Positions 5,006 through 16,351 of a stretch of DNA of 16,561 nucleotides are shown here, piece by piece; the stretch's first letter is position 1; each line of letters starts with the position of its first letter. The position numbers and the translations under genes are program-made. The notes under the pieces were generated by a model. It searched no databases, was not told the DNA's origin, and saw nothing but the letters and a program-made list of their open reading frames with translations. The stretch comes from Bacilli bacterium (GTDB lineage Bacteria > Bacillota_I > Bacilli_A > RF39 > UBA660), in NCBI GenBank assembly GCA_017411235.1, contig JAFPMR010000150.1, positions 1-16,561 of the forward strand, given 5' to 3'.

Positions 5006-5464
5006 TTATTCACCATTTTTTTTGTATTTTCTCATTTGGAGAGTATCTTTTAATCTTGAACATCTATATAGCTGATTATCAATGATTGCTGTAGACACAT
5101 CTATAAGCAATTTTTTCCCATTTTTTAGCTCAACAATTGTCTTATCTTTAAACTTATCTGGTTTATAAACATGTTCATAAGAGATCCAAGAACATTGACC
5201 ATTCCTTGGAGACAATGTAGGAAAGAAAATAATATCAAAACTTTCTTCTATAATAACAGGTACTTTATGAGTAAAACCTACTAACTTAGATGTACCTATT
5301 TGTCTTCCTTCTAAAGAACTACCAAAGTATTCACAACTCTCCTCTACTATCTTTAATGGTGATTTATTGACCTCAAACGAGTCATCAACCTCATACACTA
5401 TAGTATGATTATTATCTTTTGGAACTAATGCCACAGTATCTTTATTTATTTCATAAGAATCCAT
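5006..5464 (-). CDS. comK: ComK-family competence transcription factor, C-terminally short
   Basis: ComK is the activator that switches on DNA-uptake genes (comG, comE, comF) and its own gene in B. subtilis. The 152-residue product aligns over nearly all its length with my recollection of B. subtilis ComK: SYEIN (3-7) with SYEVN, SPLKIVEESCEYFGSSLEGR (35-54) with the KPLQIVDRSCRFFGSSYAGR segment, and FFPTLSPRNGQCSWISYEHV (80-99) with LFPTLSSTRPQCGWISHVHV. It ends at the point where B. subtilis ComK (192 residues) begins its FMLYPK tail, the MecA-binding degron, so that tail is absent. I chose the ATG at 5464 (GGAGG eight bases upstream) over TTG at 5470 (two bases). It is a single-gene unit between the dnaN and comK terminators, in the slot usually held by yaaA/rlbA. 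Homology is confident. Function as a competence switch is inferred, since no uptake genes are in the window. Confidence 0.88.
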   Translation of the reverse strand: MDSYEINKDTVALVPKDNNHTIVYEVDDSFEVNKSPLKIVEESCEYFGSSLEGRQIGTSKLVGFTHKVPVIIEESFDIIFFPTLSPRNGQCSWISYEHVYKPDKFKDKTIVELKNGKKLLIDVSTAIIDNQLYRCSRLKDTLQMRKYKKNGE

Positions 5465-5496
5465 AACCAAAACCTCCTTCTTCCAAAATTAACCCC

Positions 5497-8292: not shown

Positions 8293-8321
8293 ATTATAAT
8301 TCAGGTTGTGGAAAAATAAAA
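8293..8321 (-). promoter_or_regulatory. Possible dnaA promoter overlapped by a DnaA box
   Basis: A perfect TATAAT lies at 8298-8293 on the minus strand, about 50 bases before the dnaA start. The -35 at 17-base spacing (TTTATT, 8321-8316) is weak. A DnaA box with one mismatch (TTTTCCACA, minus, 8315-8307) occupies the spacer, which would let DnaA repress its own gene. Confidence 0.45.
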
Positions 8322-8486
8322 GTAATAAATGCACAAAAAAAAGCCGTCAACAAGGTATCAACACAATTAACCACAGCTTTTCATCTCTTAGTAACGTATT
8401 TTACCATACTTATCCACATTATCAACAAATTTTTAATAAACAATGTGGAAAAAGTTATCCACATATCCACAAGAAAAAGTGAATAA
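8307..8486. other. oriC: Chromosomal origin of replication: DnaA-box cluster
   Basis: The 338-base spacer between dnaA and rpmH has no supportable gene and holds the origin. Against the consensus TTATCCACA, exact boxes lie at 8410-8418 and 8455-8463 (plus). One-mismatch boxes are at 8315-8307 (minus), 8367-8375, 8419-8427, 8452-8444 (minus) and 8463-8471. Two-mismatch boxes are at 8355-8363 and 8486-8478 (minus). Boxes at 8410 and 8419 abut head to tail, and those at 8455 and 8463 overlap by one base, so there are two tandem doublets. A/T-rich sequence follows up to the rpmH promoter. Position next to dnaA and box density make the call firm; the exact unwinding site is not visible. Confidence 0.9.
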
Positions 8487-10696: not shown

Positions 10697-10722
10697 AAAA
10701 TTATTTCCCGGGAAATAATTTT
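10697..10722. promoter_or_regulatory. Exact Noc-binding site inside a 26-bp perfect palindrome
   Basis: Arms AAAATTATTTCCC and GGGAAATAATTTT meet with no spacer. The inner 14 bases (10703-10716) read ATTTCCCGGGAAAT, the published B. subtilis Noc-binding consensus. The palindrome ends where the first extended -10 begins. The window encodes a Noc-type protein at 14839-16338, in the operon this site precedes. Confidence 0.85.
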
Positions 10723-10742
10723 GCTATAATTAGTATAGAATA

Positions 10743-10756
10743 AAAATTATTTCCCA
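10743..10756 (+). promoter_or_regulatory. Noc half-site in the second mnmE promoter
   Basis: AAAATTATTTCCCA repeats the left arm of the palindrome 46 bases upstream but is followed by ACATATAG, so only half the site is present. It falls at the -35 position of the -10 at 10773-10778. The 16-mer TAAAAATTATTTCCCA (10741-10756) recurs exactly at 12170-12185. Confidence 0.5.
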
Positions 10757-10804
10757 ACATATAGAATTGTGCTATAATACTAGCCAAAAAGGAGTTGACC
10801 AAGT

Positions 10805-12169
10805 ATGAATGATACTATTTGTGCAATATCTACTAGTCAAGGAGTAGGTGCCATTGCCATAGTTCGTGTCAGTGGATCAGAATCTATTGAAATCGTTAAT
10901 AGTATATTTAAAGGTAAAGATTTAACACAAGTAGAATCTCATACTATTAACTACGGACACATAATTGATGACGCGGGAAATACTATAGATGAAGTACTTG
11001 TAACAATTATGAAAGCACCAAAGACATTTACAGCTGAAGATACAGTAGAAATAAATACTCATGGTGGAATTGCTCCTACTAATAAAGTATTAGAACTATT
11101 ATTAGTAAAAGGATGTCGATTAGCAGAACCAGGAGAATTTACTAAAAGAGCTTTCTTAAATGGAAGAATTGACTTATTACAAGCAGAAGCAGTCATGGAT
11201 ATGATTAATGCCAAAACAAATTCTCAAAGAGAAATGGCAGCTAATCAAATATCAGGTAAAGTATCTGATTTAATCAATGAATTAAGAGATGATATGATTC
11301 AAATCATTTCTAATATAAACGTTAATATAGATTATCCAGAGTATGATGATGTAGATATTATTACAGATGAAGTAATGATACCTAAAATTACTAAATTAAA
11401 AGAAAAGATAGAAAGAATTCTAAAAGAATCTAAAAATGGAGTCATCATCAAAGAAGGAATTAAAACTTCAATTATAGGAAGACCTAACGTTGGAAAGAGT
11501 AGCTTACTTAATGCTTTACTAGAAGAAGATAAAGCTATCGTAACCGATATAGCAGGTACTACAAGAGATATCGTTGAAGGTCAAATATCTATAAATGGAG
11601 TTCTACTTAATATGATAGATACAGCAGGAATAAGAGAAACAGAAGATACTATCGAAGCTATAGGAGTAGAAAAGTCTAAAAAAATGATGAAAGAATCCGA
11701 CTTAGTTCTATTTGTATTAAACAATAATGAAGAACTAACTTCTGATATAAAAGAACTATTTAAAGAGTTGGGAAATAAACAATATATCGTTATTATTAAT
11801 AAAACTGACCTAGAAAAGAAATTAGATATTAGTGAATTAGATGTTGATAAAGATAGAATTATTAACATGAGTATCGTTAATAATGAAGGTATAGATGAAT
11901 TAAAGAACAAGATAATTGAATTATTCAATTTAAATGAACTTGAAACAAAAGATCCTACATACCTATCTAATACAAGAAGTATAAGTATACTTGAAAAATG
12001 CTTAAACTCAGTAAAAGAAATAGAAAAAGGATTACAAAACAACATGCCAATCGACATGATAGAGCTAGATATTAGGGATATTTGGGAGACTTTAGGAACC
12101 ATTAATGGTTCAACTTATGAAGAAGAATTACTAGATGAAATGTTTAGTAGATTTTGTCTTGGGAAATAG
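10805..12169 (+). CDS. mnmE: tRNA modification GTPase MnmE
   Basis: MnmE works with MnmG as a complex that puts a carboxymethylaminomethyl or aminomethyl group on wobble uridine 34 of certain tRNAs, using GTP hydrolysis and a folate donor. The 454-residue product has the N-terminal folate-binding domain (1-120, MNDTICAISTSQGVGAIAIV), the helical domain, and an inserted G domain with G1 GRPNVGKS (225-232), G2 GTTRD (251-255), G3 DTAG (272-275) and G4 NKTD (332-335). It ends in FCLGK with the conserved C451. The ATG at 10805 has AAGGAG ten bases upstream. It is the first gene of mnmE-mnmG-rsmG-noc, and the stop is TAG. Three copies of GGGAAATA, a Noc half-site core, lie in the coding sequence (10975, 11770, 12161). 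Confidence 0.97.
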   Translation: MNDTICAISTSQGVGAIAIVRVSGSESIEIVNSIFKGKDLTQVESHTINYGHIIDDAGNTIDEVLVTIMKAPKTFTAEDTVEINTHGGIAPTNKVLELLLVKGCRLAEPGEFTKRAFLNGRIDLLQAEAVMDMINAKTNSQREMAANQISGKVSDLINELRDDMIQIISNINVNIDYPEYDDVDIITDEVMIPKITKLKEKIERILKESKNGVIIKEGIKTSIIGRPNVGKSSLLNALLEEDKAIVTDIAGTTRDIVEGQISINGVLLNMIDTAGIRETEDTIEAIGVEKSKKMMKESDLVLFVLNNNEELTSDIKELFKELGNKQYIVIINKTDLEKKLDISELDVDKDRIINMSIVNNEGIDELKNKIIELFNLNELETKDPTYLSNTRSISILEKCLNSVKEIEKGLQNNMPIDMIELDIRDIWETLGTINGSTYEEELLDEMFSRFCLGK

Positions 12170-12170
12170 T

Positions 12171-12198
12171 AAAAATTATTTCCCAGGAAATAATTTTT
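12171..12198. promoter_or_regulatory. Near-exact Noc-binding site in the mnmE-mnmG spacer
   Basis: Perfect 13-base arms AAAAATTATTTCC and GGAAATAATTTTT flank the dinucleotide CA. The core 12178-12191 is ATTTCCCAGGAAAT, one mismatch from the Noc consensus. As RNA it could also fold into a weak hairpin followed by T, so some attenuation before mnmG cannot be excluded. It starts two bases after the mnmE stop. Confidence 0.75.
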
Positions 12199-12219: not shown

Positions 12220-14088
12220 ATGTATGAAATTATAGTTGTTGGTGGAGGACATGCAGGCTGTGAAGCAGCAAATGCATGCGCAACAAAAGGACATAAAACA
12301 TTACTTATAACAAGTAATTTAAAGAATATAGCAGACATGCCATGCAATCCTCATATAGGAGGATCAGCTAAAGGTATAGTTGTTAGAGAAATAGATGCCC
12401 TTGGTGGTATTATGGGAAAAATAGCAGATAAAACCCATCTACAAATTAAGATGTTAAATAGTGCTAAAGGTCCAGCAGTACAGTCATTACGTGCTCAAGG
12501 AGATAAAATAGCTTATCCAGAAGAGATGTTAAAACATCTTAATTCTTTAGAAAACTTAACCATTCAAGAAGGAATGGTTGAAGACCTAATAGTAGAAGAT
12601 AATACTGTTAAAGGAGTTATCCTAGAGGATGGTACTAAAATTATTTCCCAAGCGGTAATACTTACAACTGGAACCTATTTAAAGGCTGATATACTTGTGG
12701 GAAATACTCGAACAAGAAAAGGACCACATGGTGAAAAACCATCTAATCATTTAAGTGATAAACTACATGATTATGGATTTAATATCATCAGACTTAAAAC
12801 AGGTACACCACAAAGACTAGATCGTAAAACAATAGATTTCTCTAAGACTAAATTAGAACCAGGAGACGATAAATTACTTACTTTTAGTTATGACTTAGAA
12901 CCATGCTATAAAATAGAAGATCAAGTACCATGTCATTTAACTTATACAAATGAAACTACCCATAAAATAATTATGGATAACTTAAATAAATCAAGTATGT
13001 ATGGAGCTTTAGATGACATCAAAGGAGTAGGTCCTCGTTATTGTCCTTCTATAGAAGATAAAGTAGTTAGATTTAAAGATAAAGAAAGGCATCAATTATT
13101 CCTAGAACCAGAAAGTAGATATTATGATGATATCTATCTACAAGGATTCTCAACATCAATGCCACCAGAAGTACAAGAACAAATGGTTCATTCACTTCCA
13201 GGACTTGAAAATGCTAAGATTCTAAAATATGGTTATGCAATTGAATATGATGCAATCTATCCAACTCAATTACATGCTTCATTAGAAACTAAAGTATTAG
13301 AAAACCTATATACAGCAGGTCAAATAAACGGAACTAGTGGTTATGAAGAAGCAGCATGCCAAGGATTAATGGCAGGTATTAATGCCTCTTTAAAACTAGA
13401 AGGAAAAGAACCATTGGTACTTAAAAGAACAGATGCATACATTGGTGTTTTAATAGATGATTTAATAACTAAAGGAATTAGAGATCCTTATAGATTATTA
13501 ACTAGTAGAGCAGAATTTAGATTATTACTTCGTAGTGATAATGCTGATTTAAGATTAAGAAGATATGGTTACGAAGTAGGTCTAATTAATGAAGAACAAA
13601 TAAATAGATTAAATAAAAAAGAAGAAGATATTAGTAAATGTCTAGAATATATGAGAAATACTAAAATAAAAATAACTCCTGAAATAAAAGGAATATTTGA
13701 AGAAAAAGGATATCAAGTTCCTACTCAATCATTAAGTCTAGAACAATTAATTAAACGACCAGAAATAACAATGGATTTCTTATCATCATTAATAGAAATT
13801 CCATATGATAAAACTATTCAAGAACAAATAGAAATCAATTTAAAATACGAAGGATATATTGCTAAGTCATACAAAGAAGCAGAGAAAATGTTAAAACTAG
13901 AAAAGAAACAAATCCCTGAAGACATTGATTATGATAAGGTTAAAAACATAGCTTCTGAAGCTAGACAAAAACTAAAAGAAGTTAGACCAACTACAATAGC
14001 TCAAGCTATCCGTATTAGTGGCGTTAATCCAGCAGATATATCTATACTTTCAGTATATTTAAAGAAAGAATATGGTAAAGATGAATAG
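12220..14088 (+). CDS. mnmG: tRNA uridine-34 modification enzyme MnmG (GidA)
   Basis: MnmG is the FAD- and NADH-dependent partner of MnmE in wobble uridine modification. The 622-residue product has the normal length (about 620-635). The FAD-binding motif VVGGGHAGCEAA (6-17) opens the protein. Two family signatures are present: GPRYCPSIEDK (about 271-281) and AGQINGTSGYEEAACQG (about 367-383). The C-terminal helical region that contacts MnmE is complete. The ATG at 12220 has AAAGGTG nine bases upstream; an earlier in-frame GTG at 12208 overlaps that site. A Noc half-site (12637-12650) encodes KIISQ at a variable position, and another GGGAAATA lies at 12699. The end overlaps rsmG by eight bases. 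The stop is TAG. Confidence 0.97.
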   Translation: MYEIIVVGGGHAGCEAANACATKGHKTLLITSNLKNIADMPCNPHIGGSAKGIVVREIDALGGIMGKIADKTHLQIKMLNSAKGPAVQSLRAQGDKIAYPEEMLKHLNSLENLTIQEGMVEDLIVEDNTVKGVILEDGTKIISQAVILTTGTYLKADILVGNTRTRKGPHGEKPSNHLSDKLHDYGFNIIRLKTGTPQRLDRKTIDFSKTKLEPGDDKLLTFSYDLEPCYKIEDQVPCHLTYTNETTHKIIMDNLNKSSMYGALDDIKGVGPRYCPSIEDKVVRFKDKERHQLFLEPESRYYDDIYLQGFSTSMPPEVQEQMVHSLPGLENAKILKYGYAIEYDAIYPTQLHASLETKVLENLYTAGQINGTSGYEEAACQGLMAGINASLKLEGKEPLVLKRTDAYIGVLIDDLITKGIRDPYRLLTSRAEFRLLLRSDNADLRLRRYGYEVGLINEEQINRLNKKEEDISKCLEYMRNTKIKITPEIKGIFEEKGYQVPTQSLSLEQLIKRPEITMDFLSSLIEIPYDKTIQEQIEINLKYEGYIAKSYKEAEKMLKLEKKQIPEDIDYDKVKNIASEARQKLKEVRPTTIAQAIRISGVNPADISILSVYLKKEYGKDE

Positions 14089-14800
14089 AGAACAATTTGA
14101 AGAAGAACTACATAAATTAGGTATTGATTTAACTGGTCATGAATTAATAAGTTTCAATACTTATTGTGAATTTTTAAAAGAATACAATTCACATACAAAT
14201 TTAACAGCAATAACAGACGACGAAGGAATTTTCTTAAAACACTTTTATGATTCCTTAACTATTGTTAACGCTATAGATTTAAACAAATATAATACCTTAA
14301 TAGATATTGGTACAGGAGCTGGATTTCCAGGCATTGTACTAGCAATAATCTATCCTCATTTGAAGATAACTTTATTAGATTCTAATAATAAGAAAATAAC
14401 ATTCTTAAAAGAATTAGCTGATAAATTAAATATAAAAGGGATAGAATACTATCAAGGTAGAGCAGAAGACTATGTAAAAACACATCGTGAAAAATTTGAT
14501 ATCGTTACAGCTAGAGCAGTATCAAATCTACCAGTACTTAGTGAATTATGTTTGCCTTTAACAAAAGTAGATGGATATTTTGTAGCAATGAAAGGATCAA
14601 ATAAAGATGAAATAGAAGATGCTAGATTTGCTATAAAAACACTAGGTGGACATATTGAAGAAATAGTAAATTTTAATCTTCCAATTGAAGAAAGTGAAAG
14701 AAATATAATAAGAGTTAGAAAGATAAGAAATACACCAAATGAATACCCAAGAAGATACGAAAAAATAGTAAAGAACCCATTGAAAATAAAAGCAAAATAG
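14081..14800 (+). CDS. rsmG: 16S rRNA (guanine-N7) methyltransferase RsmG (GidB)
   Basis: RsmG methylates N7 of a guanine in the 530 loop of 16S rRNA (G527 in E. coli) with S-adenosylmethionine. The 239-residue product has the SAM motif DIGTGAGFPG (75-84), the acidic ribose-binding region LLDSN (98-102), LKHFYDSLT (52-60) and a basic C-terminal tail ending NPLKIKAK. Length is normal. I chose the ATG at 14081 because MNREQFEEELHKLGI aligns with the B. subtilis N-terminus as I recall it. The ATG at 14072 would add three residues. Both have weak ribosome sites, and the eight-base overlap with mnmG suggests translational coupling. It is followed after 38 bases by the ParB-family gene with no terminator between. 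Confidence 0.96.
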   Translation: MNREQFEEELHKLGIDLTGHELISFNTYCEFLKEYNSHTNLTAITDDEGIFLKHFYDSLTIVNAIDLNKYNTLIDIGTGAGFPGIVLAIIYPHLKITLLDSNNKKITFLKELADKLNIKGIEYYQGRAEDYVKTHREKFDIVTARAVSNLPVLSELCLPLTKVDGYFVAMKGSNKDEIEDARFAIKTLGGHIEEIVNFNLPIEESERNIIRVRKIRNTPNEYPRRYEKIVKNPLKIKAK

Positions 14801-14838: not shown

Positions 14839-16338
14839 ATGAATTTAGAACAAACTGTCTTACAAGTACATTTAGAAGATATAATTCCTAATAGATTTCA
14901 ACCAAGATTGAATTTTGATGAACAAGGTCTACAAGAATTAGCAGCTTCAATTAAAGAACATGGTATTATCCAACCTTTAGTTTTAAGAAAACTAGGGGAT
15001 AAATACGAGATAATTGCAGGTGAAAGAAGATATAAAGCAGCTGGAATGGCGGGATTAACTACTGTACCAGCAGTTATTGCTAATATAGATGATAATAAAT
15101 CTGCAGAAGTTGCCTTAGTAGAAAATGTTCAAAGAAGAGACTTAACAGCCATTGAAGAAGCTCGTTCTTATAAGAATTTATTAGACAAGGGTTATCTAAC
15201 ACAAGATCAACTTGCTAAACGTATGGGACTATCTCAACCAGCAGTAGCTAATAAATTAAGATTATTAAATCTTGATGAAGAAGTACAACAAGCATTACTA
15301 GAAGAAAAGATTTCTGAAAGACATGCACGTACTTTATTATCTTTGCCATTAGAAGAACAAAGAGAATGGCTACATAGAATAATCAATGAGAGACTTACAG
15401 TTAGACAATTAGATCTAGAATTAAAGAAAGCTAAAGGAATTCCTGAAGATTCAGATGAAACTACAGGAGGAGATATTCCATTAGTAACAACAATTCCTAG
15501 CATTGAAGATATCAAAGCAAATGCAGTAGATATTAGAGATATAAATAATCAAGAACAAAGAGAAGAATTAGAAACCTTTGATTTAATGGAAGAACCAAAA
15601 GAAGAAGAAAGTACTATTAAAGAAGAAAAGGGAGAATTTACTACAGCAACATCAGTTCCAGAAATTAATATCGCAACTCCATATTCTTCAAGTAATATAG
15701 TTAATGAGGAACCGATAGCTATGCCAAATAACAATAATAAATTCTTTGGTGCAATACCAGAGAGTACACCAGCAGTACCAACATTTACTGCTCTAGGAAC
15801 TGAACAACCAGTACAACAACCAAATGAAATGGAAATGCATGCTTCTACAGGAGCTACAACAAATGACTTTGAAGTATTTGATGCTAGTCCTCAAACAAAT
15901 CCATATGAGATTAACTCAAATCCATTCATGGATGCTGGTTCATTTACACAACCACAAGTTCCTGCTCCTGAATTTAATAGACCTCAACAAGTTGTTAAAC
16001 CAGAATTTAATTCTCAAATAAATCCAACAGCACAAATGGAGATAAATCCTAATAATAAATTCTTTACTCCAATTGCTCAAAACACATCTGATCAAGCAAC
16101 AATCGTAAGACCAACAGTAAATAATACAGATATTGATCCGATGAAAGCTGTAGATTATTTAGCTGAGAACAAAGAAGAAAAATTAGATACTGGCGAACCA
16201 AAAGATTTGAAATATGCAATTGATTCTATTAGATCATCAATTGATAAACTTGGTAATGAAGGATTCTATATTGATGTAGAAGAAATAGACTTCCCAGAAG
16301 CATATCAAATTACTATGAGAATACATAAAGACAATTAA
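14839..16338 (+). CDS. noc: Noc-type ParB-family DNA-binding protein with long linker
   Basis: Noc is a ParB-family CTP-dependent clamp that binds scattered sites and stops septum assembly over the nucleoid. The 499-residue product has the CTP-binding part (GIIQPLVLR 42-50, GERRYKAA 61-68, ENVQRRDLTAIEEA 95-108), a helix-turn-helix (about 120-145), and a C-terminal dimerisation domain (456-497, LKYAIDSIRSSIDK...ITMRIHK) like that of B. subtilis Noc. Residues that set Noc against ParB specificity read Q133, K139, N144 and R161; Noc has Q, K, K, R and ParB has R, T, A, G, so three of four are Noc-like. It is much longer than Noc (about 283) owing to a linker (about 201-440) rich in Asn, Gln, Pro, Glu and Thr. 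The N-terminal membrane-binding helix is missing, and no upstream frame supplies it. SD AGGGG is eight bases before the ATG. A chromosomal ParB role remains possible. Confidence 0.88.
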   Translation: MNLEQTVLQVHLEDIIPNRFQPRLNFDEQGLQELAASIKEHGIIQPLVLRKLGDKYEIIAGERRYKAAGMAGLTTVPAVIANIDDNKSAEVALVENVQRRDLTAIEEARSYKNLLDKGYLTQDQLAKRMGLSQPAVANKLRLLNLDEEVQQALLEEKISERHARTLLSLPLEEQREWLHRIINERLTVRQLDLELKKAKGIPEDSDETTGGDIPLVTTIPSIEDIKANAVDIRDINNQEQREELETFDLMEEPKEEESTIKEEKGEFTTATSVPEINIATPYSSSNIVNEEPIAMPNNNNKFFGAIPESTPAVPTFTALGTEQPVQQPNEMEMHASTGATTNDFEVFDASPQTNPYEINSNPFMDAGSFTQPQVPAPEFNRPQQVVKPEFNSQINPTAQMEINPNNKFFTPIAQNTSDQATIVRPTVNNTDIDPMKAVDYLAENKEEKLDTGEPKDLKYAIDSIRSSIDKLGNEGFYIDVEEIDFPEAYQITMRIHKDN

Positions 16339-16351
16339 AATTGTCTTTTTT
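16327..16351 (+). terminator. Intrinsic terminator of the mnmE-mnmG-rsmG-noc operon
   Basis: AAAGACAAT (16327-16335), loop TAAA, ATTGTCTTT (16340-16348), with T continuing to 16351. The noc stop TAA (16336-16338) lies in the loop. Confidence 0.8.

Follow-up and report, generated by a model that had tools for sequence, protein, structure and literature searches.

Why does an operon that encodes a Noc-type protein carry a perfect palindrome with an exact Noc-binding site (NBS) in its own promoter, close to a chromosome origin? The question is raised by the window, the whole stretch of 16,561 nucleotides of Bacilli DNA that was analysed. The original prediction held that the palindrome contains the Noc consensus core and abuts an extended -10 element, and both statements were confirmed: the core ATTTCCCGGGAAAT occupies 10703-10716 within the 26-bp palindrome AAAATTATTTCCCGGGAAATAATTTT (10697-10722), whose arms pair 13/13 without a loop, and T10722-G-C followed by TATAAT (10725-10730) directly abuts it, TATAAT beginning 22 nt after the start of the core. 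Our main reading, to which we assign a probability of about 0.7, is that the palindrome is a true NBS, an origin clamp-loading site for the operon's own Noc that probably also serves autorepression. The features on which the argument draws are the following.

8307..8471, no strand: DnaA-box cluster (TTATCCACA; 2 exact boxes, 5 with 1 mismatch) between dnaA and rnpA
10697..10722, no strand: 26-bp perfect palindrome with exact Noc-binding core (sequence, pattern scan)
10722..10730, plus strand: upstream promoter-like -10, TG-extended (TGC TATAAT), a consensus match only
10743..10755, plus strand: half-site AAAATTATTTCCC, with TTTCCC (10750-10755) at the -35 position of the mnmE promoter
10770..10778, plus strand: main mnmE promoter -10, TG-extended (TGC TATAAT; TATAAT at 10773-10778)
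10805..12169, plus strand: mnmE (TIGR00450, 421 bits)
12172..12197, no strand: second NBS-like 26-mer, 1 mismatch, core ATTTCCCAGGAAAT, in the mnmE-mnmG gap
12220..14088, plus strand: mnmG (ATG 12220 picked by eye; the ORF list begins at GTG 12208)
14072..14800, plus strand: rsmG (profile search)
14839..16338, plus strand: noc-type ParB-family protein, 499 aa (profile searches, specificity residues)
16327..16351, plus strand: putative terminator hairpin 3' of noc, AAAGACAAT-TAAA-ATTGTCTTT, then T-rich (by eye; the terminator scan did not list it)

By ORFs and profile search, mnmE, mnmG, rsmG and noc follow one another on the same strand. The wider order is gyrA, gyrB, recF, comK, dnaN, dnaA, DnaA-box cluster, rnpA, yidC, jag and mnmE-mnmG-rsmG-noc (gyrA, gyrB, dnaN and rnpA named from ORFs by eye). 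The region is the chromosome origin, and the DnaA-box cluster, 2.2-2.4 kb away from the NBS, is probably oriC. The comK product, a ComK-family protein (PF06338, E 1.2e-46), is encoded on the minus strand at 5006-5470, with dnaN and recF on either side; in 21/80 fetched loci, dnaN has a comK relative beside it.

The promoter region itself is built as a tandem repeat, in which the NBS with its TGC-TATAAT is followed, 46-48 bp on, by the half-site AAAATTATTTCCC with TGTGCTATAAT (TGTGC-TATAAT). The main TATAAT starts 23 nt after the beginning of the half-site's TTTCCC and 32 nt ahead of the mnmE ATG. A scan of the window with up to 3 mismatches to the NBS gave 3 matches against 0.66 expected. At the second site, mnmE ends in GGG AAA TAG, and these codons can base-pair with the left NBS half to give a stem at 12157-12188, flagged by the terminator scan as terminator-like. 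This stem might act as an attenuator of the operon, and could cut noc off from the mnmE promoter.

Genome-wide counts were made in relatives, the closest whole genomes of which share ~65% full-length Noc identity with the window. The 193 genomes sampled make up the family to which a Ca. Coprovivens genome (G003) belongs; most of the relatives' assemblies are MAGs in fragments, with no completeness stated. The exact 14-mer NBS was found in 158/193 genomes, with 361 sites in total (mode 1, maximum 20), and was absent from 35; exactly one copy is present in 67 genomes, and 189 have 0-6. A lone exact copy in an AT-rich window might by itself be taken for coincidence. However, chance would yield ~0.0025 exact sites per 1.2 Mb at 28% GC, or ~0.5 over 193 such genomes against the 361 found, and the reversed palindrome gave 0 sites in the same genomes, which makes a chance origin practically negligible. 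In a class-wide sample that includes the family members, 60/395 genomes carry an exact NBS; the reversed control matched twice, both times in a single genome (G552). At 0-1 mismatch, at least two NBS are present in 11 of the 12 genomes checked, among the matches listed. With up to 2 mismatches, the same 12 genomes have 77 sites but also 30 of the reversed pattern, and two-mismatch sites were therefore left out of NBS counts; of the matches listed, 43 have 0-1 mismatch, and 42 of these lie on the noc contig. An asymmetric two-mismatch relative, ATTTCCCACGAAAT, has four copies off the noc contig in G004, G005 and G007.

The original prediction also proposed that the site may nucleate a Noc clamp near the origin, a view that the placements fit well. 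On the origin contigs of 16 genomes, none of the 53 sites measured (0-1 mismatch) is more than 22.4 kb away from the dnaA start. Six of these contigs are 107 kb to 1.04 Mb long and carry 19 of the sites; the other ten span 26-67 kb, too short to reveal distant sites. The 1.04-Mb contig (G020) has 4/4 one-mismatch sites in 20.5 kb. A site lies +2.4 to +2.7 kb from dnaA, in the mnmE upstream region, in 11/16 genomes (+2.45 kb in the window), and where a listed site is on the same contig as noc, it lies within 26.5 kb of the gene (33/33; 16 genomes). Exact NBS were found in 17 of 20 genomes, with 53 of the 56 sites on the noc-bearing contig; the other three are on contigs without noc and were not placeable. 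The expected tens of sites, with depletion around the terminus as in the terminus-free spread of B. subtilis, were in contrast not borne out: the relatives have few sites (maximum 20), near the origin where they can be placed.

Among 184 distinct loci, NBS lie in the mnmE upstream region (36), the mnmE-mnmG gap (12), rsmG (11), mnmE (4) and the rsmG-noc gap (1); eleven loci besides the window have a site classed to the mnmE-mnmG gap, two of them more than 600 nt from mnmG. Others lie in the gyrA-tadA gap and, by eye, inside dnaX, ebfC and metG (the relatives' tadA, dnaX, ebfC, metG and tatD being named from ORFs by eye). Of the sites embedded in rsmG (L224, L230, L250, L258, L271, L284, L289 and others), several apparently occupy the same codons. 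In these small-genome Bacilli, the NBS set is usually a handful near oriC, on the noc operon side and on the side from gyrA to metG/tatD, and its members in coding DNA and gaps suit loading better than control.

The same data bear on the idea that the palindrome acts as RNA, as a terminator or attenuator hairpin. A perfect inverted repeat could fold in this way, and the stem at 12157-12188 is indeed terminator-like. However, no T run comes after the palindrome, the main -10 is downstream of it, related sites occur within genes, and the sequence itself is nearly fixed, being exact in 60 of 73 distinct sites (preselected at 0-1 mismatch). We regard a role as RNA as highly improbable.

Is the protein of the operon a Noc? 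The prediction that the operon encodes a Noc-type protein was right in gene order, and it agrees with the specificity residues and with a tree. The window protein (14839-16338) has both ParB domains (PF02195 and PF17762, 111 bits each). Its best NCBIfam match is Noc (TIGR04285, 278 bits, below the curated cut-off of 315); relatives in G003 and G020 score 270 and 281 bits, and their Spo0J-type paralogues 244 and 239. Its closest solved-structure relatives are Noc proteins. NBS preference is set by Q173, K179 or K184, and R201, one lysine being sufficient (PMC7383237, in excerpt). The window protein has Q133, K139, N144 and R161 at these places, the Noc-type pattern Q-K-x-R, with N144 instead of the usual K at the equivalent of position 184. 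In a tblastn set of 131 rows, with identity taken against the first 210 residues of the window protein, QK[NST]R was present in all 119 rows of at least 64% identity (98 distinct sequences), whereas nine of nine Spo0J-type paralogues have R..G or R..S, and the remaining three rows are distant ParBs. The ParB/Spo0J rows form one group in the tree (97/68), outside which Geobacillus Noc falls together with the Noc rows of the relatives; the tree has long branches, moderate support and Geobacillus as the sole known Noc. Specificity residues and tree thus place the window protein, with moderate support, in the Noc lineage. Moreover, R64 and N96 do not vary across the 26 sequences compared; they fall at the places of B. 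subtilis R89 and N121, as matched by their spacing of 32, and these are CTP-binding residues of Noc (PMC8429893, in excerpt).

A match at E 1e-20 or better was found in 190/193 family genomes, mostly two per genome, the second being a Spo0J-type protein in the nine genomes examined. In G003, G006 and G020 (L142, L144, L153), the Spo0J-type gene lies ~30-50 kb from noc on the same contig. The Spo0J paralogues begin with LGKGL or LGRGL, the ParA-binding motif (PMC12704722, in excerpt), which the window's Noc-type protein does not have. The structure prediction of the window protein (mean pLDDT 51) was too weak for use, and hints at no more than a disordered central part and, at the C-terminus, a helix-strand-strand unit.

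The window stops within gyrA, and in the relatives read parS lies just past this gene. An NBS lies close beside parS, at 5-35 bp, in about a fifth of family genomes (36/193), and a reversed control for such pairs gave 0 in 193 genomes; gyrA, tadA or dnaX is near the pair in 30/30 returned loci. In G042 (L167), which has 20 exact NBS genome-wide, 13 NBS alternate with 12 parS beside gyrA at a repeat of ~79 bp. Class-wide, pairs occur in 14/395 genomes, 11 of which belong to the 193-genome family; the other three are G019, from the set of Noc relatives, and two further genomes, G409 and G537. The parS-to-NBS centre distances are nominally phased (R 0.38, p 8e-4), but the 49 values come from 36 genomes that are related and so not independent. 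The reversed parS pattern with up to 2 mismatches matched in 9 of 20 genomes, and single two-mismatch parS matches in those genomes are therefore weak. In closer relatives (L114, L116, L117, L118), a symmetric parS variant, TGTTCCACGTGGAACA, replaces the usual TGTTTCACGTGAAACA beside gyrA. Titles and abstract openings in the open-licence literature yielded no paper on NBS interleaved with parS.

One could also suppose that a dimeric transcription factor unrelated to Noc uses the palindrome as its operator, as palindromes on -35 elements are typical operators. We consider this very unlikely: the palindrome's sequence is the Noc core consensus, placeable sites are near the origin and adjoin parS in the genomes just counted, and the operon's own protein carries the matching specificity residues.

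Does the site also control the operon? An NBS with 0-1 mismatch lies within 200 nt of the mnmE start in 30 of 158 distinct upstream regions, and none was found in that range in the other 128; autoregulation through an NBS in the mnmE promoter is therefore not general. Within the NBS-bearing set (window included), a -10 was called 22-34 nt ahead of the mnmE start in 29/30 regions. In nine mnmE upstream regions, three of which (L004, L005, L007) look closely related, the distance from the start of the NBS to the -10 hexamer is exactly 24 nt, which places TTTCCC on the -35 position; none starts at 25-42 nt. The half-site ATTTCCC is kept at the exact 24-nt place in the window and in L001-L003, and is 1 nt off in L075, while TTTCCC was found at that place in 0/90 NBS-less promoters with a -10 call. 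It may be kept as a weak -35 element. A pattern search of the 193 genomes, which in part recovers the promoters already counted, gave 14 matches (7 at 23-24 nt, 6 at 41-44, 1 at 29), including an apparent tatD promoter of G003 and G001 with 24-nt spacing. Helical phasing of the NBS to -10 spacings was considered as further support and set aside, as its significance (p 2.5e-4) was lost once the 24-nt sites were removed (p ~0.07). The geometry fits repression by occlusion. The self-regulation that the original prediction had suggested is thus plausible but unproven: several lineages have a site or half-site placed exactly on the -35, but the arrangement is not general. In titles and abstract openings of the open-licence literature, no paper on Noc autoregulation or on an NBS in a noc promoter was found.

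A simpler account is that Noc must load near oriC, that the promoter is merely handy non-coding DNA, and that the operon is not regulated by Noc. The way in which sites shift among the mnmE upstream region, the gaps, rsmG, mnmE, the gyrA-tadA gap and other genes speaks for it. It does not explain the exact 24-nt spacing in nine mnmE upstream regions, the half-site retained at the same place in other promoters, or the equal spacing in the tatD promoter of two genomes. We rate loading alone as not quite an even bet.

On our main reading, loading at the origin with probable autorepression, the palindrome at 10697-10722 would be the loading site for a CTP-dependent clamp, the product of the operon's fourth gene. 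Together with the half-site at 10743 and the site at 12172, it would load Noc ~2.4-3.9 kb from the dnaA start, and loaded Noc would slide into the noc operon and toward oriC. Since the NBS lies on the tandem operon promoter, Noc bound over the -35 would probably dampen transcription of mnmE-mnmG-rsmG-noc, a negative autoregulation. We infer that the window's Noc binds the site and loads there as a clamp; repression of the operon by bound Noc has about even odds.

How such a Noc could reach the membrane is a related question. B. subtilis Noc needs an N-terminal amphipathic helix, which holds R7-F8-F9 (PMC4331003, in excerpt). The window protein has at most 6 residues ahead of its core. Among 95 Noc-type proteins, 6 residues precede the core in 62 and 16-30 in 8; even with the longest possible start taken, 87 have at most 13. 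Most of these proteins would thus have little room for the usual N-terminal membrane-targeting helix. The linker of 73/95 contains [NSGTD][KR][FY]F (91 occurrences, N being first in 86), against 1.0 expected from shuffled linkers; the motif is lacking in 22/95 Noc-type proteins and was found in 0/9 Spo0J paralogues. In addition, FFNFL occurs in the linker of 58/95, and the window protein has NNKFF twice. It is tempting to hypothesize, by resemblance to R7-F8-F9, that the linker [KR]FF is a relocated membrane anchor; membrane attachment through it is presumed.

Taken together, these observations could mean that Noc in this family is a second CTP-driven origin clamp rather than a chromosome-wide nucleoid-occlusion factor, with a hybrid parS/NBS centromere beside gyrA, a linker N[KR]FF tether and self-repression. 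ParB and Noc would load at parS and NBS in one centromere beside gyrA, and N[KR]FF, moved from the N-terminus to the linker, would tether Noc to the membrane or a partner. If so, Noc would link the origin with the membrane, and from this single place would set the timing of replication or division. We hold this joint reading tentatively, as having rather less than an even chance; its odds were slightly lowered because 10 of the 16 origin contigs are short and 22 of the 95 proteins are without the linker motif.

How does the family compare with known systems? As in B. subtilis, noc follows rsmG. The window shares with the B. subtilis system the site core, the Q-K-x-R residues and the equivalents of the CTP-pocket residues. 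In B. subtilis, ~70 NBS are spread over most of the chromosome (PMC4331003, in excerpt), and on NBS DNA Noc is a loading, sliding CTP-dependent clamp (PMC8429893, in excerpt). In contrast, the relatives have few sites, all measured ones within the origin-proximal range given above, NBS beside parS in 36/193 genomes, and a Noc with little or no room for an N-terminal helix and a long linker with [KR]FF motifs. An exact site outside Bacillus, which the original prediction called notable, is not new: the core consensus of S. aureus Noc, which controls replication initiation, is identical to that of B. subtilis (PMC5540599, in excerpt). According to the same excerpt, all but one of 41 S. aureus Noc loci lie within 700 kb either side of the origin, and minor peaks adjoin dnaA. 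The sites are alike in both core and preference for the origin half, but 189/193 relatives have 0-6 exact sites instead of 41 loci, and the sites measured are no farther than 22.4 kb from dnaA. parS/ParB (Spo0J) also offers an origin-adjacent cluster and a paralogous clamp, and some relatives' NBS lie within the gyrA-tadA array; the parS sequence departs from the NBS at positions 1 and 6 (PMC7383237, in excerpt).

KorB is a plasmid repressor with its own operator and a partner, KorA. As a ParB-fold clamp of plasmid RK2 that represses promoters (PMC11790492, in excerpt), it is a precedent for a ParB-family clamp as transcription repressor, orthology not being claimed. The dozens of sites of B. 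subtilis and S. aureus Noc are thought to mark the nucleoid. An exact NBS held near the origin, in places alternating with parS, separates replication control or origin tethering from chromosome-wide occlusion, and the family offers a natural test of a Noc with few sites and no N-terminal helix, as well as of how two sibling clamps could share one centromere. Judged from residues and tree, the system is Noc/NBS-like, yet it differs in the N-terminal helix, the chromosome-wide sites and the curated cut-off; it would be an origin-restricted variant of Noc/NBS, perhaps with self-regulation.
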